A stretch of DNA of 64,000 nt, taken from Nitratireductor indicus C115. GTDB taxonomy: Bacteria > Pseudomonadota > Alphaproteobacteria > Rhizobiales > Rhizobiaceae. Shown here in pieces: positions 36,261 through 50,296 of the stretch. Under the pieces are notes generated by a model. The model saw nothing but the letters and a program-made list of their open reading frames with translations. It ran no database searches and had not been told where the DNA came from. Within the stretch, counting starts at the first letter, position 1. The number at the start of each line of letters is the position of its first letter. The translations under genes and the position numbers were made by a program. Location: contig NZ_AMSI01000003.1 in NCBI RefSeq assembly GCF_000300515.1, positions 310,001-374,000 of the forward strand, read 5' to 3'.

Positions 36261-36341
36261 AAACCACCGCACATTGCCGGCAGGATTTTGCGCATCCCGC
36301 GCATGCCTGTGGCTACCAAGGACAGTCTTCAGGAGAAAATT

Positions 36342-37784
36342 ATGCACTCCACATTCACACGCCGCGGCTTTCTCGCCGCCGGCGCGGCATTCGCCGCAAC
36401 CGCAGCCCTTCCTGCAACGCTCCGCGCCGCGCCGCAGCGCACCCTTCAGGCAACCACCCGTACGATCGACATCGACGGCAAGCCGGCCACCGTCTTCGGC
36501 TTGTCTGGCGGGGATGGTCGGCAGGGATTGGTTCTCGAACCGGGAGAGCGATTCCGCCTTTCGCTTGAAAACACGCTTGCGGAGGAAACCCTGATCCACT
36601 GGCATGGCCAGATACCGCCCAATGATCAGGACGGCGTACCCGACATGCCAATGCCCAAACTCAAGCCCGGCGAAACAAGGGATTATGACTTCGCACCGCT
36701 CGCCGGCACGCATTGGATGCATGCACACATTCCCGCACAGGAGATGCAGCTCCTCGCCGCCCCTCTTATCGTGAGGACGAAGGAAGATGCCGAAGCCGAT
36801 CGGCAGGAAATCGTCCTTTTCCTACAGGACTTCACCTTCAAACCCCTGTCGGATTTGCTCGACGATCTGGGCGCAAGCGAAGCCGGCCATGGCTCGTCAT
36901 CCATGAGCGGCATGGGGGGCATGATGGGCATGGGCGGCATGAACCATGGCGGCATGAATCACGGTGCCATGGAGATGGACCTGAACGACATTGAGTTCGA
37001 CGCCTATCTGGCCAACAGCCGCACGCTCGACGATCCCGATGTTACCATGGTCGAGCCCGGCGGCGAGGTGCTCCTGCGCATTGTCAACGCCGCCTCCGCA
37101 ACGGTCTACTGGGTCGACAGTGGCGCGCTCGATGCCGAACTGGTTGCCGTCGATGGACACCCGGTCATCCCTCTTAAGGGAAGGCGTTTCGGGCTCACCA
37201 TGGCGCAACGCATGGATTTGCGCCTGCGCATTCCCGTACAAGGCGGCGCATTTCCGATCCTCGCTCTGCGGGAAGGGGCGCGCGAACGCACAGGTCTCGT
37301 GCTTGCGACACCGGGGGCGGATGTGAAACGCATCGCTTCGACGGGCGATGAAGAAGCCCCTGCCCTGGGGCTGGATCTGGAGACGCGGCTTTCCGCCACC
37401 ACTCCGCTTGCCCCGCGTTCTGCCAGCGATGGGCGAATGGTGATGCTGAGCGGCAGTATGGAGCCCTATTTATGGACCATTGACGGTGGCATCTGGGGCG
37501 ATCATGCCCCGATTACCGCACGCAGCGGCGAACGTTTCGAGATAACGCTTCACAACATGTCGATGATGGGGCACCCCATGCATCTGCACGGTCACACATT
37601 CCAGGTGGTCGGTATCAACGGTAGACGTTTCTCCGGCGCCATGCGCGACACCGTCTATGTCCCGCCAATGGCCATGGTCACCCTCGCGGTCGATGCTGGC
37701 GAAGCCGCGCGCTGGATGTTTCACTGCCACCACATGCCACATCTGGCCACCGGCATGATGACCGAATTCGCGGTCTCTGCCTGA
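36342..37784 (+). CDS. Periplasmic multicopper oxidase (CopA-like)
   Basis: 480 residues with a Tat signal (TRRGFLAAGAAFAATAALPA, about 6-25), so it is exported folded. Cupredoxin motifs for copper sites: HWHG (about 85), HWMHAHIP (about 124), HPMHLHGHTF (about 410) and HCHHMPHLATGMM (about 461), which includes the type-1 Cys. A Met/His-rich segment (about 187-210, repeats of GMGG and MNHGGMNHGAME) probably binds extra copper, as in CueO/CopA. Likely a cuprous oxidase for copper tolerance. AGGAG precedes the ATG at 36342. It converges with fhs over a GC palindrome at 37788-37801. Confidence 0.92.
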   Translation: MHSTFTRRGFLAAGAAFAATAALPATLRAAPQRTLQATTRTIDIDGKPATVFGLSGGDGRQGLVLEPGERFRLSLENTLAEETLIHWHGQIPPNDQDGVPDMPMPKLKPGETRDYDFAPLAGTHWMHAHIPAQEMQLLAAPLIVRTKEDAEADRQEIVLFLQDFTFKPLSDLLDDLGASEAGHGSSSMSGMGGMMGMGGMNHGGMNHGAMEMDLNDIEFDAYLANSRTLDDPDVTMVEPGGEVLLRIVNAASATVYWVDSGALDAELVAVDGHPVIPLKGRRFGLTMAQRMDLRLRIPVQGGAFPILALREGARERTGLVLATPGADVKRIASTGDEEAPALGLDLETRLSATTPLAPRSASDGRMVMLSGSMEPYLWTIDGGIWGDHAPITARSGERFEITLHNMSMMGHPMHLHGHTFQVVGINGRRFSGAMRDTVYVPPMAMVTLAVDAGEAARWMFHCHHMPHLATGMMTEFAVSA

Positions 37785-37830: not shown

Positions 37831-39510
37831 TTAAGACAATCCCTCGATCATACCGTCTTCATTGAGGAAAATGTGCTCGGCGGCCGGCGTCCTCGGGAGG
37901 CCCGGCATGGTCATGATGTCTCCGCAGATGGCGACAACGAAGCCTGCCCCTGCCGAGAGCCGCACCTCGCGCACCGGCACCACATGATCCACAGGCGCGC
38001 CGAGCAGCGCCGGGTCGGCTGAAAAGGAATATTGCGTCTTGGCCATGCACACGGGTAAATGGCCATATCCCTCCTCCTCCCATTGCCGAAGCTGGGCGCG
38101 CACGGACGTATCGGCCGAGATTCCAGCACCGCGATAAATACGCTTCACCACGGTTTCGATCTTTTCGACAAGCGGCATTTCGTCGGGATAAAGCGGCGCA
38201 AAGCGCGCCTTGCCCTCATCGGCAAGCGCCGCAACCTTGTGTGACAGCTCCTCGATACCGGCCGACCCTTCCGCCCAGTGCCTGCACAGCACGGCTTCTT
38301 CCCCAAGCTCGTCGACATAGGCTTTGACGGCATCGATCTCCGCCTGCGTATCGGAGTGGAAATGGTTGATCGCCACGATCACCGGAACGCCAAAAGAGCG
38401 CACATTTTCCACATGCCGCCCGAGATTGACGCAACCGGCTTTAACCGCAGCGATATTTTCCTGCCCCAGATCGTCCCTGGCGACACCGCCATTCATCTTG
38501 AGGGCGCGGATCGTGGCCACGATGACAGCCGCCGCCGGTTTAAGCCCCGCCTTGCGACACTTGATATCGAAGAATTTCTCCGCTCCGAGATCGGCGCCGA
38601 ACCCCGCTTCCGTCACCACATAATCGGCAAGTTTCAGCGCCGTACGCGTCGCCATCACCGAATTGCAGCCATGGGCGATGTTGGCGAAGGGCCCGCCATG
38701 AACGAAGGCGGGGTTGTTCTCCAGCGTCTGCACCAGATTGGGCTGCAACGCATCCTTGAGAAGCACGGCCATGGCCCCGTCTGCCTTCAGGTCCCGTGCG
38801 CGCACCGCGCTACGGTCGCGGCGATAGCCGACGACGATTTCGCCAAGCCTGCGCTCAAGATCGTTGAGATCGCTTGCAAGGCACAGGATCGCCATGACCT
38901 CGGAAGCAACCGTGATGTCGAAGCCGCTCTCGCGCGGAAAACCGTTCGCCACCCCGCCAAGGGACGAGACGACCTGCCGCAATGCGCGGTCGTTCATGTC
39001 CATCACCCGCCGCCAGGTGACCCGGCGCGTGTCGATGCCGAGCGCATTGCCCCAATAGATATGGTTGTCGATCATGGCGGCGAGCAGATTGTGTGCCGAG
39101 GTGATTGCATGGAAATCGCCGGTGAAATGGAGGTTCATGTCCTCCATCGGAACCACCTGCGCATAACCACCTCCGGCCGCGCCCCCCTTGATCCCGAAAC
39201 AGGGACCGAGCGACGCCTCACGAATGCACACGGCGGCGTTCTTTCCGATACGGTTCAGTCCGTCGACCAGTCCCACGGTCGTGGTGGTCTTCCCCTCGCC
39301 CGCCGGCGTTGGGTTGATCGCCGTCACAAGGATGAGCTTCCCGTCCTTGCGTCCAGCGATCCGTGCGATGAAATCCGCCGAAATCTTCGCCTTGTCATGC
39401 CCGTAAGGCACTAGGTCTTCGGGTGAAATGCCGAGCTTTTTGCCAATCTCCTGGATCGGTCTCTTCACGGCAGCGCGGGCGATCTCAATGTCTGACTTCA
39501 CTTCGGCCAT
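37831..39510 (-). CDS. fhs: Formate--tetrahydrofolate ligase
   Basis: 559 residues matching the homotetrameric ligase from end to end. The ATP P-loop is [14 protein letters not shown] (about 67-80). Other blocks are [40 protein letters not shown] and [19 protein letters not shown]. It makes 10-formyl-THF from formate, THF and ATP, feeding one-carbon metabolism. Start at 39510 ([14 protein letters not shown]), which is the common family start; the frame continues upstream to 39621 without support. It is followed upstream by the unrelated ATPase gene. Confidence 0.96.
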
Positions 39511-39577: not shown

Positions 39578-40735
39578 TCAGCGCTCCGGCCATGCCCAGG
39601 CGGGCCGGACATGATCTTCAAGAACGATGGTTTCGCCGAGTTCCTTGGCCAGTGTGAAAGTCACGGCCTCCCCCGTTTCGGCAAGCGCCTCCGCTAGCGC
39701 CTGGGAATGGGTGACGACGATCACCTGCGACCTCGACGCAGAACGCAACAGAAGCCGGCCCAACGGCTCGATCAATGCCGGATGGAGGCTCGTCTCCGGT
39801 TCGTTCAGAACCAGCAAGGGAGGCGGCCTCGGTGAGAGCAACGCGGCAACAAGCATGAGGTAGCGCAGCGTCCCGTCGGATAGTTCAGCCACGGACAGGG
39901 GTCTCAGCAACCCCTGCTGCCGCACCATCGCCTCCAGATATCCGTCCCGTTCCCGCACTTCGAGGATGCTGCCAGGAAACGCATCGTCGATAGCCGCCGA
40001 CAGCCCCTCGGCATCGCCGATTTCGATGATCGTCTGCAGCGCGGCCGCAAGATCCCTCCCGTCCGACGACAGGATGGGGGTGCGGGTGCCGACCTGGGGA
40101 CGCCGGACCGGCGCATCGAGATCGGAGCGCAGGTGATCGTAGAACCGCCAGCTTCGCATCCGGTCGCGAAGAACGAGAAGCTCCAGCGCATTGCGGGGGT
40201 CCGCAGCGTGGGTCATCATGCTGTCGGAAGGAGAAAGAGACGTCAAAACGGTGGCGGATTTGCCGCTCTGGTCCAGAACGCCGACATGCGGTCCCCGGCG
40301 GCGCGCGAAGCCGTTGCGGCGGCTCAGCGCCTCACCCGCCCAGACCGCTTCTGCCTTGATCTCGGGGTCGCGCGCGAACATGCTTTTCGAGGGGCTGGGC
40401 AATCCAAGGTCGACCGCATAGCCATAATCCTCGTCGGCGAATCCCAACCGGAGGCTAACGGGACCGGTGCGTACCGTACCCTGAACCGGTTGCTCGCCGG
40501 ACTTCATGCCGGCGGAGAACTTTTCCGGCCCCGCCCAGAGCGTCGAGCCGAGCCCGCCCTCACGCGCCAGGGAGGCGATTGCCTCTCCTTGTGCGACTTC
40601 AGAAAGCAGGCGTATCGCCCGATAAAGGCTGGACTTGCCGGCGCCATTCGCGCCAGTGACGATATTCAGTCGTCCCAGAGGCAGGATGACATCGCGAAGT
40701 GACCGGTATCCCGAAACTGCAATGGTGAGGATCAT
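39578..40735 (-). CDS. RecF/SMC-like AAA family ATPase
   Basis: 385 residues. Walker A is [14 protein letters not shown] (about 26-39), the ABC-like signature is [10 protein letters not shown] (about 289) and Walker [14 protein letters not shown] (about 310-322), where the usual Asp is Asn, a known feature of the COG4637-type ATPases. There is no TOPRIM domain, so it is not an OLD nuclease by itself. Function unknown; such ATPases sense DNA or ends in several defence and repair contexts. Start at 40735 ([13 protein letters not shown]), alternative at 40747. It lies 70 bp after the DUF2333 gene on the same strand and may or may not belong to that unit. Confidence 0.8.
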
Positions 40736-40805: not shown

Positions 40806-41930
40806 TCACCGGTCGAGAACCTGGCGCAGTTCGACGAGATTGGATCGCGCACGCAGGATGTAGAAGCCCATCGTGGCAAGGTGGGTCGGCATCACCCAGC
40901 CATCCTCCCGTCCATTGGAGATGATGAAGGGTGTAATGTTGAGCGCGGCGCGGAACTGCTGTTCGGTGGTGGCCCAGAGCGAACCCAGCGAGCGCTGCTT
41001 GATGACATCCTCGAAATCCGCGCCGGCAGCCCGCAGAAGGCCGTAATAGGCGTAGAGCTGCCCATAGGCGAACCAGAAGCGATCATCCGCACGCGTATCG
41101 AACCAGCCGCCATTGTAGTTTTCCGAGCGCTGGCGAAGGAGATCGGAGGTCGAGCCGAGATCGTTTGCAATACGGTCTAGATACTGGATGAGATTGTCGG
41201 CGCGCGCATCGAACACGGCCTCGCAGGAAACCAGCCGGTCATTGAATTTGCGCAGGTCGCGAATGGCCGAACGATAGAAGCTCGGTGTCGGCGTCTTTGG
41301 GCCGAAGGGACTGAGACCAAAATACCAGGTCTCCTCGTCGAAGGTCAGCGCGCCGCGTGCGTTCTGCAGGTCGCGGTCGATTTGCGACGTGCCGCGCACG
41401 CGCCCGAGTGCATCGACGAGTTCGATGGCGCTGCGCCGCACACCCTGATTGATGCCGCGCTGGAAGGACGCCTTGTTGTCGAGGAACGGCGTATCGTCCC
41501 AGTCGAGCACGAAGAAGAAGCCGAGCTTGTACAGAAGCATGGAGGAAATCCAGGCATTCTGGTTCACGTTGAAGTCCGTCAGATCGGCGGTCAGGTCGAC
41601 AATGGCCGAACGCCCGCAGGTGCGCGTTTCGCCGCCCTGGGTGCCGGCGGTCTGTTCGCCCGCCGAAACACCGCGCTCCTGAAGCTTGTATTTTTCGACA
41701 TAGTCGGGATCGAAATTGGTCCAGACCTGCGTCTGCCAGATGAAATATCCGTAGAAACCGACAATTGCCAGAACGGCGAGCCCCACCGACCCGCGGATAA
41801 TCCAGCCGCGCCGTGTGTACCAGCGTCCCGCGGCCACGAACGGCCACAGAATCCACGCGATCACCATGCCGATGCCACGACCGATCCAGTGGAAGACGCG
41901 GGTGAAGAATTCGACGATCGGATCGAGCAC
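40806..41930 (-). CDS. DUF2333 membrane protein
   Basis: 374 residues: N-terminal amphipathic/hydrophobic segment (about 5-36, rich in Trp and Phe), one strong helix (about 47-68, SVGLAVLAIVGFYGYFIW), and a large extracytoplasmic domain with NVNQNAWISSMLLYKLGFFF and GWFDTRADDRFWFAYGQLYA. This is the DUF2333 (COG5345) signature. It is the last of the five same-strand genes 47583-40806 and their only clear membrane component, so it could anchor the complex. No enzymatic motif is seen. Confidence 0.9.
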   Translation of the reverse strand: MLDPIVEFFTRVFHWIGRGIGMVIAWILWPFVAAGRWYTRRGWIIRGSVGLAVLAIVGFYGYFIWQTQVWTNFDPDYVEKYKLQERGVSAGEQTAGTQGGETRTCGRSAIVDLTADLTDFNVNQNAWISSMLLYKLGFFFVLDWDDTPFLDNKASFQRGINQGVRRSAIELVDALGRVRGTSQIDRDLQNARGALTFDEETWYFGLSPFGPKTPTPSFYRSAIRDLRKFNDRLVSCEAVFDARADNLIQYLDRIANDLGSTSDLLRQRSENYNGGWFDTRADDRFWFAYGQLYAYYGLLRAAGADFEDVIKQRSLGSLWATTEQQFRAALNITPFIISNGREDGWVMPTHLATMGFYILRARSNLVELRQVLDR

Positions 41931-41951
41931 GGGGCGCCTCCTCGGGCGGGT

Positions 41952-43235
41952 TCAGTCCAAGCCAAAAAGACGTCGTCTCAACGCCGCCTTGTCCCTGAGA
42001 TAAGTGGTTTTGAGCCGCGCCACAACATATTCGCGCCAGCTCTCCGAATAGTTCTCGTAGTCTTCGTAGAAACCTTGCTTGTTGAAGATGTAGCGAGCGA
42101 TGAAATCCGATGGAACAAGGTCGGAAACGAGCCTGTTCGTCAGCCAGGCATCCGGATGTTCCGGATTGGCTCGCGTCACCAGGAAACGCTGAGGGGCGGG
42201 AATTTCCTCAATCTTGAGCTGGCCGAACTGGCTGATTTCGCGCACCGCCGCGTTGAGGAAGGGAACGGACCCTTCGCGCGCCACCATATCGGCATGGCGA
42301 TGTGTCCAGGTTTGAAGCCAGACCGGATCGATGCGCGAGAAATCCTGATCGGGACTGGCCTTGCGCACCAGATCAAGCAGCACCATCTCGCCGCGATGCG
42401 CGAGATAGCCGGAGGTTTCCATCCAGGAAGCCCGCGGCAGCTGAATGCGCCCGGTCTCCGCCAGAAAACGGAAAATGCGCGCCGGGTCGTCCTTTGCAAG
42501 ATAGCTCACCTGCCAGGGTCGCGAACGCCGGAAACCCGGCGTCGCCGGGTCGGCGATAACCGTGGTCGTATCGCGGTCGGCGAAGATGTAGACGCCGCCG
42601 AAATGGCTCGTCCAATAGGCGCCGTGCCGAAACACCACCTGCTCCGGCACCAGACTGTTTTCGCGGATATCCCCGGTTTCCTTTGAAAGCGCTACCATGC
42701 GCTGCAAAAGCGTATCGTCGCGCCAGGCGTCGGGCTCGTGCTTCACCCGGTCGGCGAGCCTGCCGAGTTCTGCCGCCTTGCCAAGCAGGTCTTCCGCTGA
42801 AAGCACCTTGAATTCCACCTGCACGATGGACAGCAGGTCCTCGATATCGCGGACCTGGTTCACCTGCTCCTCGATCTCGCCATAGACCACATCCTTGATG
42901 GTGATGGCGTTGATGGCGCGCGCATTGGCGGTCATGAACTCGTAGACGAGCTGCGACGTGTTGGAGAAGGCGGTGTGAACGACGGGCAGCTCGATCTGCG
43001 CCGGCGTCAGGATGATGAAGCGCCGATTGACGCCATTGGGATCGAGATACTGGTCGTCCTTCAATTCCTTGGCGATTTCGGGTGAAAATCCTGTCCGGTC
43101 GATCTCAAAGGATTTGAGCTTGGTCTGCCTGACCCCGAACGCCTCCAGCGCCTTGTTGTAGCGCGCAATCAGGTGCGGCTCCTCGATTTTGAGCAACCGC
43201 CCGAAGATCAGGTCGTTGTCACGCAGGAGGTTCAT
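41952..43235 (-). CDS. DUF6638-like protein of the AAA/DUF2333 cluster
   Basis: 427 residues, soluble. It begins MNLLRDNDLIFGRLLKIEEP, then GFSPEIAKELKDDQYLDPNG and a middle part with YWTSHFGGVYIFADRD; I associate this with DUF6638, from memory only. Mixed alpha/beta, no membrane segment or catalytic motif. It lies 18 bases after the AAA ATPase stop and 21 bases before the DUF2333 gene, so the three are surely one transcript. Function unknown. Confidence 0.8.
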   Translation of the reverse strand: MNLLRDNDLIFGRLLKIEEPHLIARYNKALEAFGVRQTKLKSFEIDRTGFSPEIAKELKDDQYLDPNGVNRRFIILTPAQIELPVVHTAFSNTSQLVYEFMTANARAINAITIKDVVYGEIEEQVNQVRDIEDLLSIVQVEFKVLSAEDLLGKAAELGRLADRVKHEPDAWRDDTLLQRMVALSKETGDIRENSLVPEQVVFRHGAYWTSHFGGVYIFADRDTTTVIADPATPGFRRSRPWQVSYLAKDDPARIFRFLAETGRIQLPRASWMETSGYLAHRGEMVLLDLVRKASPDQDFSRIDPVWLQTWTHRHADMVAREGSVPFLNAAVREISQFGQLKIEEIPAPQRFLVTRANPEHPDAWLTNRLVSDLVPSDFIARYIFNKQGFYEDYENYSESWREYVVARLKTTYLRDKAALRRRLFGLD

Positions 43236-43253
43236 GCCCGCTCCTCTGCCAGC

Positions 43254-45167
43254 TCAACCCGCATTCCACACACCTCTCGCCTTCATATCCTCGATCTCGC
43301 GGATGGCGCGTTCGCGCAGGCGCTGGTCGCGCACGATGTTGGAGACCGCCACGTCGTCGGATCGGTCGGAATAGCGGAATTCCGAATCCGCGTAGCGGTT
43401 GATCTCCTGCATCACCATGCTCATCGTGAACGGTTTGCGCAGCTCGGCGATCATCGCCTTCTTCTCATCGTACCCCTTGCGCATGAAGGCATCCGGCGTT
43501 TCGAACCATGCGTCCGGCAGCTCGATATCCATGGCGCGCATCTTGATCGCATCGGTGATGTTCTTGATCGCGCGCCCTGTGAAGCGCGGTTCGGCAAGCT
43601 TGATCTCGTGCAGATAGGCGCCAATGTCGGTCAGAGTTCCGGGCTCGCCGCGCTCGTTCAGGAAACGCTCATAGACCTTTTGCAGCCCCTCTTCCTGCGG
43701 CCTGGAATGAGCTTCATAGGCCGTCTCCACCGCCCGCTTGATCTCCTGCGTCGCAAAAAGCGAGTGCTCGCCAAGCGGAATGTCGTGGTTCTTTCCGGCA
43801 AGCAGCACAAAGATGTCGACATAGTCTTCCAGCGTCTGCGGCCCGTCCACCAGCCAGCGCGCGCCCGCCCGCTGGCGCAAGGCATCATCCACATTCTCCG
43901 GATAGTTGGAGAACATGCCAAACGAGCAATTGCCGCGCACCACGGTGCCTGCGCCTGCGAAACTTTCCATCAGGACGCCGGTCACTTCTTGCTGACCGGC
44001 TGACGCCCGGTCGTCGGAACGCTTGGCCGCCACCTGATCGATGTCGTCGATTGTGCCGAAGCCGATGGCGCGCGGGCTCAAGACGTTTTCCACGAACTGC
44101 TTGCAGTTCTGGCCCGATTTGCCCTGGTAGGAGGAGATCTGGTCAACGCCGAAATTCTCGTAATGGAAGGGTACACCCGCCACCTGGCAATAATCGTTCA
44201 GGAGCCCGGCGGTCATCTGGATGAGGATGGTCTTGCCCGTGCCCGGCGCTCCATCGCCGATGAAGGTGAAGAGAAAACCACCCAGTTCGACGAACGGGTT
44301 CATTTGCCGGTCGAAATCATAGGCCATGAGCATCTTGGCAAGCTTCATGGCCTGGTATTTGGCGATGTGGTTGCCGATGATCTCGTTGGGCTTCTTGAAG
44401 CTCATGACCAGCGGCTTGCGCTTCTGACCAGGCGCAACGTCGAACCCGTCAAGCGTGAAATCATCGGCCTCAAGCCGCATATGTGCGTTCTCGAAGGCCC
44501 CGAGCCCGCTGAACCGGCCTCGCCTTTGCAACAGCCCCTCAATGGCGACCCGCGCCACCGCCCGCGCCCGAGCCGTCATCACGGTCTCGTCGGCAGCCCC
44601 TGCAATGGAACGGTCGAGCGCGGCGATCACGCTCTTCAGCGCGTCCTGTGGCGTGTCGAACTGGAAATCCGGTTCATCCGTGTCATTGACCGGCTCGCTG
44701 TCCGCATCGAGCATGCGCAACAGATAGGAGGACAGCGTAAAGGCGGCGACATAGGCCGACGCCTGAAGCAGCGCGTGATAGCTCTGCGCCACATCGCCTT
44801 CGAGCGGGCTGCGGGTATTGCGTTCCTGAAGGCTTTCAAGCTCGGTCGAGCGCGCGAACACATCAGCGACAGACAGCGCTACCGCTGCCCCGCGCCGGGC
44901 GCGGTAGAGCAGCGTGTGCTGAGCGATGGAAAACATCGGGTCGTCCTTGCGGATCGCCGCGATTGTCCTGACAAGTTCCACCTCGCGCGTCTTGCGCAGA
45001 GACCCCGTGGAAACGGTGGAGACGAAACGCCGCCCGGTGCCGGCAAGCTCGGTGCCTGAACGCCCCGCATCGCTCTCCAGCATCACGAAACGCGTCACAA
45101 GGCTCTGCGCCGTGGCACGGTGCTTCTCGATGTCCTTTTCGTCGATGGTCGTCAGGCCAGTATCCAT
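43254..45167 (-). CDS. Classical AAA ATPase with N-terminal helical domain
   Basis: 637 residues. About 1-255 is a mostly helical unique domain. The AAA core follows: Walker A GDGAPGTGKT (about 304-313), a pore-loop-like SSYQGKSGQNCKQFVENV that aligns with YVGESEKNIRELFE of classical AAA proteins, Walker B FGTIDDIDQVAAKR, sensor 1 in MFSNYPENVDDALRQRAGAR with candidate arginine fingers. The catalytic Glu of Walker B is Asp here. The C-terminal part (about 500-637) is helical. It resembles substrate-threading or complex-disassembling AAA proteins. It is the only obvious energy-using protein of its five-gene unit. Confidence 0.88.
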   Translation of the reverse strand: MDTGLTTIDEKDIEKHRATAQSLVTRFVMLESDAGRSGTELAGTGRRFVSTVSTGSLRKTREVELVRTIAAIRKDDPMFSIAQHTLLYRARRGAAVALSVADVFARSTELESLQERNTRSPLEGDVAQSYHALLQASAYVAAFTLSSYLLRMLDADSEPVNDTDEPDFQFDTPQDALKSVIAALDRSIAGAADETVMTARARAVARVAIEGLLQRRGRFSGLGAFENAHMRLEADDFTLDGFDVAPGQKRKPLVMSFKKPNEIIGNHIAKYQAMKLAKMLMAYDFDRQMNPFVELGGFLFTFIGDGAPGTGKTILIQMTAGLLNDYCQVAGVPFHYENFGVDQISSYQGKSGQNCKQFVENVLSPRAIGFGTIDDIDQVAAKRSDDRASAGQQEVTGVLMESFAGAGTVVRGNCSFGMFSNYPENVDDALRQRAGARWLVDGPQTLEDYVDIFVLLAGKNHDIPLGEHSLFATQEIKRAVETAYEAHSRPQEEGLQKVYERFLNERGEPGTLTDIGAYLHEIKLAEPRFTGRAIKNITDAIKMRAMDIELPDAWFETPDAFMRKGYDEKKAMIAELRKPFTMSMVMQEINRYADSEFRYSDRSDDVAVSNIVRDQRLRERAIREIEDMKARGVWNAG

Positions 45168-45257
45168 GGAAGCTCCTGATTTGCCGGGCGGTGAGGTTGC
45201 CCTTCATCTGCACCCATTGCCCATGTGAAGGAGAACACGGGCGCCAGGGTCACAACC

Positions 45258-46406
45258 CTAGACATCGGTGATCACCTTGCCGCCGGAGATGACATGCACA
45301 TCATAGCCCTCGAAGATCTTCTGGGCCTCGCCCGCCGCATAGAGCGCCTGATAGGCCTCATGGGGAACGAGCGCATGCTGTTCATAGGCGCTGACGCCCA
45401 TGCGGGCAGCGTCCAGATCATCAGTCTCGATGAAGAATTCCTCGCGCGCCGGCTCGCTCGACCACAGCCCCTTGCGGGCCGGTCGCTCGCTCTTGGAATA
45501 GACCTCCTGCACGGTCCAGGTGAGAAGCCAGGCATTTTCCTGGCGCCGCACCTTGGAAAGCACTTCCGAGACCGCTGAATTGTTCTCGGTGATCCCCGCC
45601 GTGTAGAAAGGACCTAGCACGACGCGGCGCAGCTGCTTGGGATGTAGATTGTCGAAATCCTTGTCGAGATTGCCGGCGATCGTGGCAGGCGACAGCGAGT
45701 AGGCCGAATTCTTCTCGGCGAATTCGTCGAACCTGTGCGCCAGCGCCGGATTGAGAAGACCGCCCACCGGCAAACCGATCTCCACGCCGTCGTTCAGCTT
45801 TCCTTCATCGGTCACGAGGACCTTGATCATGTCGGGCGAGGAATCCTCCACCGCCGCCATATAGACCATGGGCAAGCTGGAAGAACCGTCGAATGCCCCC
45901 CAGTGAACGAGATAGTAGGGTCGCTTCGTCTTCGGATTGACCGAAACACGTACGGTTTCGGGCAGAACGAAAGGCGAGAAAACCTTGCCGTCTCTGAGCT
46001 CCTCCAGATAGAGCCGCTCGGCCATGGAACGTTGCAGCGCTTCGGGAAACTCGCGATGGCGCAGGATGAAATCGACCATCTCGGCACGCAGCTCATCCGG
46101 ACCGGGAATGCCCGCCAGCCGCTTTTCCGCCTGCCGCCGGTCATTCTCGAGTTCGAGAACACTCTGGAACACCGGATAGCCGCTCTCCGCCCTCTGGATA
46201 CGGAACTTCTCCATGAAGCCGATCCGGTTGCGCCAGCAGTCGAAGGAGCGTTCCAGGCGGCCGATATAGGGCGCCACCACTTCCGCAACCAGCCCATGTG
46301 ACTGGAATGGCGAGGCCGTGCGGTCGGAGAAATAGACGCCTATTCCCTCAAGGGCTGACGAGATGGCAGAGAAATAGCGTTCGGCGGCCTCGTTCGTCGC
46401 GTTCAT
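45258..46406 (-). CDS. Unknown soluble protein of the AAA/DUF2333 cluster
   Basis: 382 residues, no membrane helix or signal peptide. Helical N-terminus (about 1-110) followed by a beta-rich part with KRPYYLVHWGAFDGSSSLPM and MIKVLVTDEGKLNDGVEIGL. I do not recognise a family. It lies between the coiled-coil gene (88 bp) and the AAA gene (90 bp) on the same strand. AGGAG-like sequence precedes neither alternative start better than 46406. Its job is presumably as an adaptor or substrate of the ATPase, by position only. Confidence 0.75.
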   Translation of the reverse strand: MNATNEAAERYFSAISSALEGIGVYFSDRTASPFQSHGLVAEVVAPYIGRLERSFDCWRNRIGFMEKFRIQRAESGYPVFQSVLELENDRRQAEKRLAGIPGPDELRAEMVDFILRHREFPEALQRSMAERLYLEELRDGKVFSPFVLPETVRVSVNPKTKRPYYLVHWGAFDGSSSLPMVYMAAVEDSSPDMIKVLVTDEGKLNDGVEIGLPVGGLLNPALAHRFDEFAEKNSAYSLSPATIAGNLDKDFDNLHPKQLRRVVLGPFYTAGITENNSAVSEVLSKVRRQENAWLLTWTVQEVYSKSERPARKGLWSSEPAREEFFIETDDLDAARMGVSAYEQHALVPHEAYQALYAAGEAQKIFEGYDVHVISGGKVITDV

Positions 46407-46494
46407 GATACGCGCCTCAGGGCTAGACGCTGCCGCGATGGCGCAGCGCCAACCGCCTCAAGACACACCGGCATATCCAACACAGGCCGCCCCA

Positions 46495-47583
46495 TCAGCT
46501 GCGGACGTAATTGGCCGCGTCGTGCTTCTTCATCACGTCTTCGAAGCGGCGGGCGAAAGCATCGTCCGCCAGTTTCTTGCGCCGCTGGATATCGGCCGTG
46601 GTGACCATGTTCTTCTCATGCAGCTCCAGGAGATCGCCGATATGGCGCTGTGCGGCAGCGCCGATACCCGCCATGGTCTCTTCCGCGGTGTTGTCGACCT
46701 TGGAGCCCAGCGTGTTGATGCGGTGGGCGACATCCTGCTGGGCCGCCGTCTTCAACGAATCCTCTAACGCCTTGTAGAGAACGATGCGCTGCTCGGTATC
46801 GATGGTGAGCTTGTTGATGAGTGTCGACTGGGCCGCGATCTGGTTGTTCAGCGAATCCACGAAGGTCTGGAACATCGACGTATAGCGTTCGAGCGTCTGG
46901 CTTTCGGCCAGAAGTGTCTGCTCGCGGGCCTGCGCCTCATTGTACTCGGTCGCAAGCTTGGAGCGATCGCCCTCCAGCTCCGTGCGATCCTTCTGGCTCG
47001 TCGATGCGGCAATGCGGTTCTCGACATCGAGAAGCATGGGATTGAGCTCCTCGATCCGCTTCTGTGTGGTCTCGAGATCGTGCATTGTCGACTTGCGCCG
47101 CTCGATCACGGTGGCAAGGCTCGTCTCCGAGGTCTTGTAGCGTTCCTCCAGAACCTGCTTCTGTTCCTTGAGGATGCCGGTGATGGTGTCGGATTTTCCA
47201 AGCAGTTCCTGAAGATTTCCGGCAAGCGACATGTTGCGCACGCGTTCGGTGCGCATGCGCTGTTTGCGCTGCTTGGAGAAAATGCCGATGAAATTCTCCC
47301 AGCCGGTGTAGCTTTTCATGCTCTCGAATTCGGAGCCGAACACGTTGGTCGCATCTTCGAGGCCGATGATCAGGTCCGCGATATTCGATTCCATGACCTT
47401 TTGCTGCTTGAGCACATCGGAGATGCGGGCGTTCTCGATGTCGAAATCGGCCTGGCCGATTTTCTCGTCCGTGCGCGCCAGCTTGTCGAGCACGGTGCCC
47501 GACTGCTCGATCCGCGTACGCATCTCATTGACGACATCACGGGTCTTGGCGATCTCCGTGTCGAAATTCTGCAACGTTGCCAT
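46495..47583 (-). CDS. Long coiled-coil protein, first gene of the AAA/DUF2333 cluster
   Basis: 362 residues, almost entirely helical with heptad-like patterns (about 1-60, 105-245 and 270-362), e.g. EKIGQADFDIENARISDVLK and RTELEGDRSKLATEYNEAQA. No membrane segment. A short non-coiled part near 80-100 (SYTGWENFIGIFSKQRKQRM) may be a hinge. The organisation recalls TelA-like or PspA-like coiled coils that work with AAA ATPases at membranes, but no sequence signature proves it. It starts 20 bp after the LysR gene on the same strand, so the promoter is within that gene or shared. Confidence 0.78.
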   Translation of the reverse strand: MATLQNFDTEIAKTRDVVNEMRTRIEQSGTVLDKLARTDEKIGQADFDIENARISDVLKQQKVMESNIADLIIGLEDATNVFGSEFESMKSYTGWENFIGIFSKQRKQRMRTERVRNMSLAGNLQELLGKSDTITGILKEQKQVLEERYKTSETSLATVIERRKSTMHDLETTQKRIEELNPMLLDVENRIAASTSQKDRTELEGDRSKLATEYNEAQAREQTLLAESQTLERYTSMFQTFVDSLNNQIAAQSTLINKLTIDTEQRIVLYKALEDSLKTAAQQDVAHRINTLGSKVDNTAEETMAGIGAAAQRHIGDLLELHEKNMVTTADIQRRKKLADDAFARRFEDVMKKHDAANYVRS

Positions 47584-49669: not shown

Positions 49670-50296
49670 CTATTCGGCGCCCCGGGCGCTGCCGGCAAAT
49701 CCCATCAGGTCCTCGGCGGGCTGGCGTCCCATCTCTTCTTCCCAATGCTTACGGCAGAGCGAGACATAGACATCCTTTCCGATGGCAACCTGCTCGCCGG
49801 TGCGCGCCACCTTGCCATCGCCCCCAAGCCGCACGACCATCGTCGCCTTGCGGCCGCACCTGCAGATGGTGCGCACCTCGCGCAGCTCGTCGGCCAGCGC
49901 GAGAAGCGCCTGCGAACCGGAAAAGAGCCGCCCCTGAAAATCCGTCCGCAACCCGTAGCACATGACCGGGATGCCAAGCCGGTCGGCAACGCGCGCCAGC
50001 TGCCAGACCTGCTCCTCTTCCAGAAACTGCGCTTCGTCGACGAAAACGCAATGGACATTAGAATGTTCGTGATGATCGGCGATGCGGGCAAACAGATCGT
50101 CCCCGTCGCGGAACATCTCCGCCCCGCTCTCGAGCCCGATACGCGAGGAGATATAGCCTCCATCCTCCTTGCGGTAATGACCCGCGACGAAAAGCATGGT
50201 CGTCATACCCCGCTCGCGATAATTGTGGGATGCCTGCAGGAGCATCGTGGATTTTCCCGCATTCATCGTCGCGTAGTGGAAATAGAGTTTGGCCAT
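49670..50296 (-). CDS. tdk: Thymidine kinase (type II)
   Basis: 208 residues. P-loop ATMNAGKST (about 9-17), Walker B/catalytic FVDEAQFL (about 88-95), lasso region and Cys motif CRCGRKATMVVR that helps bind zinc. It phosphorylates thymidine to dTMP for nucleotide salvage. Alphaproteobacteria do not always carry it. It is divergent from the choline transporter operon. Confidence 0.93.
   Translation of the reverse strand: MAKLYFHYATMNAGKSTMLLQASHNYRERGMTTMLFVAGHYRKEDGGYISSRIGLESGAEMFRDGDDLFARIADHHEHSNVHCVFVDEAQFLEEEQVWQLARVADRLGIPVMCYGLRTDFQGRLFSGSQALLALADELREVRTICRCGRKATMVVRLGGDGKVARTGEQVAIGKDVYVSLCRKHWEEEMGRQPAEDLMGFAGSARGAE

Follow-up and report, generated by a model that had tools for sequence, protein, structure and literature searches.

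A four-gene AAA ATPase block with a variable slot in Nitratireductor indicus and its relatives

The 64,000-nucleotide stretch of Nitratireductor indicus C115 analysed here (contig NZ_AMSI01000003.1, positions 310,001 to 374,000; hereafter the window) carries on its minus strand four genes that encode a coiled-coil protein (cc), a protein without known family (unk), a classical AAA ATPase (AAA) and a DUF6638 protein, and that keep together as an operon-like block. No function is known for three of the four core proteins, although conservation of the set reaches from rhizobia to Vibrio. What is new here is a variable slot inside the core, at the junction between AAA and the DUF6638 gene, which is visible only through the relatives. 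As the best explanation of the whole we tentatively propose that the proteins would form one multi-protein AAA+ machine, often coupled to a swappable effector. A fixed slot that takes Abi-type, nuclease-type and small membrane protein genes offers a handle on the role of the unit and a route to new effectors.

Four genes travel as one block

The order and strand of cc, unk, AAA and the DUF6638 gene are identical in 69 of 69 complete loci and the set is therefore not a product of chance. The loci were assembled from a sample of 398 genomes of the phylum, 26 of which have DUF6638; besides the window's own there are 25, and regions were taken from 20 of these, to which were added the window, six Nitratireductor loci, three plasmid loci and 40 loci from better-scoring matches in the group f17 (presumably Rhodobacteraceae; 198 genomes, sampled one per genus). 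One of these 70 loci, L187, is cut by a contig end and was dropped, and a Sinorhizobium K101 locus (L134) served for synteny only. Most loci were located via DUF6638, so that the 69 of 69 figure is conditional on the presence of this gene. The genome searches used DUF6638, unk, cc and DUF2333. Separate searches with unk and with DUF6638 pick out an identical set of 26 genomes among the 398, and cc is found in those 26 and in five more, one a weak match (G271, E 0.0018). DUF6638 is present in 90 of the 198 f17 genomes. Among plasmids, an AAA match covering 80% of the query or more was found in 10 records, each of which has cc as well; this result and the genome search with unk agree with the picture from the 69 loci.

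Conservation of the gene order in distant bacteria had been named beforehand as a test of the unit, and it extends to Vibrio megaplasmids. These are the farthest members, with an AAA ~40% identical to that of the window; one such region was inspected. Within a group belonging to another class (f51, kinship label "same phylum") the unit is present in one of 61 genomes, together with DUF1523 (L043), and its core is 74% identical to that of an f17 member. The f51 and Vibrio megaplasmid occurrences suggest transfer as a block. No relative of AAA was detected in phages by tblastn or in viral contigs by a pattern scan. An Alkaliphilus AAA was dropped as a relative because the match covers 26% of the query only, and profile comparison found no relationship between unk and DUF6638.

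The initial annotation had put forward five genes as a candidate undescribed unit. Its five minus-strand open reading frames (ORFs), with gaps of 88, 90, 18 and 21 bp from cc through unk, AAA and DUF6638 to DUF2333, agree with the ORF list in coordinates and spacing, and the block is real and conserved, but the core comprises four genes, DUF2333 being a lineage-specific fifth. That the unit is undescribed has held up in so far as the literature search found no description of it, combined-term searches included; the accessible parts of PMC11237479 and PMC3710099 are silent on the unit. No mention of DUF6638 was found either, most subscription papers lying outside the search, which is hence no proof of unpublished status. 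In the available portion of one paper, DUF2333 figures as an uncharacterised gene of a Pseudomonas fluorescens type VI secretion system locus, and the titles retrieved for DUF1523 concern other subjects. The tag SMc02733, given for a ChvI-bound fragment of Sinorhizobium in a partly accessible source, could not be shown to belong to the unit.

Table 1. Features of the unit in the window (positions are those of the 64,000-nucleotide stretch)
Feature	Position	Strand	Description
cc	46495..47583	-	coiled coil, 362 aa, core gene 1; no family above cut-off
unk	45258..46406	-	382 aa, core gene 2; without known family
AAA	43254..45167	-	637 aa, core gene 3; classical AAA ATPase, long N-terminal part
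Variable slot	43236..43253	-	AAA/DUF6638 junction; 18 bp, empty in the window
DUF6638 protein	41952..43235	-	427 aa, core gene 4; Pfam E 6.1e-74
DUF2333 protein	40806..41930	-	374 aa, GTG start; lineage-specific membrane partner
Walker A of AAA	44229..44258	-	GDGAPGTGKT, residues 304-313
Putative pore loop 1 of AAA	44118..44129	-	YQGK, residues 347-350; tentatively assigned by position
Walker B of AAA	44037..44051	-	IDDID
cc residues 276-290	46714..46758	-	SLKTAAQQDVAHRIN; candidate contact with the ATPase module

In Pfam, AAA matches PF00004 with 38.8 bits against a cut-off of 21.2 (E 1.5e-9), and the DUF2333 protein matches PF10095 in two stretches with 85.5 bits against a cut-off of 22 (E 4.2e-24). 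The DUF6638 protein had been termed DUF6638-like, which names the right family but understates the case: Pfam makes it a full member (PF20343, 249.9 bits with the cut-off at 27, covering positions 1-411 of the 439 in the model). Nothing exceeds the Pfam cut-off for cc, and unk has no Pfam match. Pfam contains no other catalytic family among the five proteins, in line with the earlier view of the ATPase as the sole recognisable enzyme. None of the five reaches a curated cut-off in NCBIfam, and PHROGs yields two matches only, both on the AAA domain part.

The unit is flanked by tdk (49670-50296) and fhs (37831-39510), and likewise in most rhizobial relatives examined, which argues for a stable locus in these bacteria. 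Between DUF2333 and fhs lies an AAA_21 gene (39578-40735, minus strand), absent from the initial annotation of the unit, whose ATG at 40735 is situated 70 bp past DUF2333 and whose top PADLOC model is HEC-01A (1.2e-43). Homologues ~70% identical are present downstream of DUF2333 in L003 and L007, and none was found in L002, L004, L005 or L006; this position is a possible third variable site. Beyond fhs, the plus-strand gene at 36288-37784 has a twin-arginine-like start and HWHG and HCHH stretches, and by eye it appears multicopper oxidase-like.

A variable slot between AAA and DUF6638

The spacing between AAA and the DUF6638 gene varies from a 4-nt overlap to more than 2 kb, the longest containing an insertion sequence (IS) element (L097). 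With sense ORFs of at least 85 aa counted and shorter ones excluded, the slot is occupied in 49 of the 69 loci by 62 ORFs in all; it is filled in 41 of the 52 loci with DUF1523 and in 8 of 16 rhizobial loci. Pfam matches among the 62 comprise DUF559 (six), AbiJ_NTD4 (two) and the HEPN family DUF4145 (two), along with single cases of putAbiC, DUF3825, a weak HNH, a weak HATPase, SecY and DUF465. The endonuclease model MTES_1575 has six slot members, always DUF559 proteins in individual scans. With PADLOC, AbiP, DrmA and type IV restriction models were each matched by one slot ORF and two further models by four each, both of which matched DUF559 proteins in another scan. In 12 loci the slot is filled by small membrane proteins that BLAST groups into a single family, and 31 of the 62 ORFs have at least two hydrophobic segments in a simple hydropathy count and look like small membrane proteins. 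The motif of HEPN RNases, R-x4-6-H, is present in the AbiJ- and DUF4145-type slot proteins of L037, L040, L041 and L166. HEPN families with AbiJ and DUF4145 are described in the part of PMC3710099 that was accessible. The initial annotation had noted no toxin, nuclease or phage gene and considered that defence was not implied; this holds for the five genes in the window, but the slots of some relatives carry AbiJ, putAbiC, HEPN- or endonuclease-type genes.

In 29 of the 49 occupied loci, the end of the last slot ORF and the start of the DUF6638 gene share 1 or 4 nt, and slot ORFs lie no more than 20 nt from both neighbours in 26 of the 49, a position that unrelated genes share. No homologue of any of the 62 ORFs was found elsewhere in the fetched loci, which span ~12-20 kb each. 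Closely similar cores can carry different slot genes, as in L179 and L183 (core 89% identical) or in L169, L171 and L175, where three different genes occupy the slot of a core that is 84% identical. Each of thirteen hand-chosen slot genes has a higher AT content than its own locus (G+C 0.43-0.50 vs 0.52-0.64), which suggests that these were imported recently; the mean G+C of all 62 slot ORFs is 0.561 vs 0.616 for 68 AAA genes. The DUF559 slot genes may have to be viewed apart from the rest, as several copies occur in some of their genomes.

A HicB-like antitoxin gene lies antisense within the slot of Nitratireductor pacificus (L007:7345-7740). A second variable site is located between cc and unk, where 24 sense ORFs of at least 85 aa occur in 21 loci (L036-L040, L165, L169, L173, L174, L176 and others), 19 of the 24 having at least one hydrophobic segment.

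The ATPase, the coiled coil and the membrane partner

The Walker A pattern of AAA is found in 68 of the 69 loci and an Asp-Asp Walker B in all 69, in the form [IVL]DDID in 67 and IDDVD in L047 and L097, the usual acidic pair of an AAA+ Walker B being Asp-Glu. Residues Y347, Q348, G349 and K350 are invariant in 18 aligned AAA proteins, and YQGKSG is present in 63 of the 69 loci. The sequence LRQRxGAR, which presumably sits at the arginine-finger place of classical AAA proteins, occurs in 67 of 69. Among solved structures, AAA is best matched by sequence to proteasomal ATPases and to the ATPase domain of an i-AAA protease. These motifs fit a ring ATPase that would pull on its substrate, possibly slowly; by analogy with the family, AAA would be expected to act as a threading hexamer.

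In five reduced loci, L096 (R. leguminosarum pSK03) and L100-L103 (from the window's family), unk, AAA and the DUF6638 gene are absent together and cc and DUF2333 remain; the pSK03 pair is still situated between tdk and fhs. The pattern SLKTAxQQxxAHxIN is present in cc of 69 of 69 full loci and, as read off the alignment, missing from five of five aligned cc proteins of AAA-less loci. We counted the erosion of cc in cells, that is, positions invariant in 15 sampled full loci multiplied by the five reduced proteins. Between residues 274 and 310, where 18 positions are invariant, only 8 of 90 cells are kept and the alignment shows a deletion; the cells kept number 28 of 55 in residues 61-120, 26 of 35 in 121-180, 34 of 55 in 241-273 and 21 of 45 in 311-362. 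The loss is sharpest at residues 274-310. Since the segment is present in all full loci and lost where AAA is absent, it is a candidate contact between cc and the ATPase, and the simplest way to read the sequences is that it would touch the ATPase module. The paired loss of this module and the cc segment names a contact that is open to direct testing.

Structure models were built with seven sequences per protein, six of them relatives at least 88% identical to the window's. The cc model is helical with a mean pLDDT (predicted local distance difference test) of 58.9, a central hairpin at about residues 140-250 alone being confident; the unk model, with a mean of 41.3, was not used. Profile searches against solved structures were uninformative for cc, unk, DUF6638 and DUF2333.

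Of the 69 loci, 15 have DUF2333 next to the core, every one of them from rhizobia (the window's family, Nitratireductor, Sinorhizobium), and 52 have DUF1523, as determined with a local profile built from five proteins, Pfam itself having been applied to four; neither is present in two. DUF2333 being found in some loci and DUF1523 in others, the membrane partner is therefore exchangeable. In the DUF2333 protein a single hydrophobic helix at the N terminus was recognised by reading the sequence and not with a predictor, and residues C105 and C236 are invariant among nine aligned proteins. By reading, both DUF2333 and DUF1523 appear to be membrane proteins with an extracytoplasmic part, and because they accompany the core a membrane association of the unit is plausible; its activity may be remodelling, as the initial annotation supposed. 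Genome-wide, DUF2333 is found in 98 of the 398 genomes, in 11 of them alongside DUF6638, and cc of this family was not found in 20 DUF2333 regions from genomes outside the DUF6638 matches.

Possible function and likeness to known systems

We consider it likely that the unit is an AAA+ machine and that it works on a tethered coiled coil. AAA would assemble into a ring around a threading pore, with unk and DUF6638 perhaps as its adaptors, and the machine could grip cc via the SLKTAxQQxxAHxIN segment, with cc tethered at the inner membrane by DUF2333 in the window's lineage and by DUF1523 elsewhere. In many relatives the slot gene would supply an effector, a HEPN/Abi-type RNase, a nuclease or a small membrane protein, which the machine may hold inactive and free upon stress or infection. 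Since the window slot is empty, the core there would have a function of its own or use an effector encoded elsewhere. It is possible that the unit is a modular defence or stress system. A more specific version is a modular immune chassis, in which the motor, two adaptors and a tethered cc sensor would restrain a co-translated and interchangeable effector for release on envelope damage or phage infection, forms with an empty slot working alone or in trans; this we regard as rather unlikely.

A number of observations weigh against the proposed machine with its effector. With PADLOC 2.0.0 (E up to 0.01; the library predates newer systems) only a weak TRIP13 match of AAA was found (0.0036), the other four proteins being blank, and a rhizobial locus flanked by tdk and fhs is unlike a typical mobile defence island. 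No sense slot ORF is present in 20 of 69 loci, the window among them, and the core therefore does not need a slot gene. Most slot ORFs have no Pfam match, several (e.g. in L049, L167 and L202) are probably not genes, and Abi or HEPN Pfam models match 5 of the 62 only; L179 and L184, from the BLAST group of L171, themselves fall short of putAbiC. The ATGA at the DUF6638 start ends any ORF in that frame, so that the 4-nt overlap is partly automatic. As for the cc segment, the reduced proteins are eroded elsewhere too (residues 1-60 retain 2 of 15 cells and residues 181-240 retain 13 of 35), and all five may descend from one deletion event.

A rival explanation is that the core would be an AAA machine for membrane or envelope maintenance with no role in defence, and the junction a harmless insertion site that gathers mobile or selfish genes; we take it as seriously as the first while stopping short of calling it probable. 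Empty slots are indeed common (20/69), the HicB-like gene of the L007 slot is antisense and the L097 slot holds an IS element, and DUF559 matches recur within some of the same genomes (9, 5, 3 and 1 in four genomes). The 91 flanking control genes also look like housekeeping genes among the 25 of 111 families listed, an absence of Abi families there not being proven by this list. However, the tight fit of slot ORFs, which in 26 of the 49 occupied loci lie no more than 20 nt from either neighbour, and its repetition by unrelated genes speak against a passive landing site, as does the finding that the rest of the fetched loci contain no homologue of any of the 62 ORFs. Both readings of the junction, a true effector slot or a harmless landing site, stand, each with the same reserve as the explanation to which it belongs.

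It is quite unlikely that the unit is instead a dedicated AAA+ chaperone that assembles or repairs one membrane complex, with DUF2333 and DUF1523 as its clients. DUF1523 next to the core in 52 of 69 loci would suit this role, as would the retention of cc with DUF2333 in the reduced loci, but only 11 of the 98 genomes with DUF2333 have DUF6638, and two full loci have neither membrane protein. We give still less credence to the idea that cc is a divergent TelA or a PspA/ESCRT-III protein and the unit a variant tellurite-resistance or phage-shock system, which appears highly improbable. It draws on the helical hairpin of the cc model and on the adjacency of a coiled coil, a classical AAA and a membrane protein, as in operons described in the accessible part of PMC11237479. 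Compared by hhalign with nine TelA sequences, however, cc gave E 0.05 and a probability of 1.1% (E 0.31 in an earlier comparison with a smaller profile), against E 2e-8 and 95% for a TelA-internal control, and TelA, suggested by a visual likeness, was rejected as an identity for cc. In Pfam, cc has no TelA (PF05816) match, nor any PspA or Snf7 match up to E 0.1, and no TelA match was found in the window's genome. The TelA/PspA-type resemblance put forward in the initial annotation is thus not borne out.

The proposed AAA+ machine can be compared with several known systems. With classical AAA+ ATPases it shares the AAA domain, Walker A, a candidate aromatic pore loop and what we take to be the conserved arginines after sensor 1, whereas its Walker B is Asp-Asp and its long N-terminal part belongs to no family; unlike the AAA+ proteases, the window AAA has no protease domain in Pfam. 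In the operons of PspA/Snf7 proteins with AAA+ ATPases, a helical coiled coil, an AAA+ ATPase and a membrane protein are likewise encoded together (PMC11237479, accessible part), but cc has no PspA/Snf7 match, and unk and DUF6638 are not mentioned in that part of the paper. TelA is similar to cc in size and in helical prediction, but not in Pfam match or profile. The Abi HEPN proteins AbiJ and DUF4145 represent the families of some slot genes, R-x4-6-H motifs included, with the difference that here the genes lie inside a conserved AAA operon of relatives and are absent from the window. CBASS (cyclic oligonucleotide-based antiphage signalling system) is a defence with modular effectors, in which a constant core is combined with interchangeable nuclease or membrane effectors. 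Although no nucleotide cyclase or other CBASS model is matched here, AAA being weakly TRIP13-like only, the unit resembles CBASS in having a constant core with interchangeable nuclease or membrane genes.

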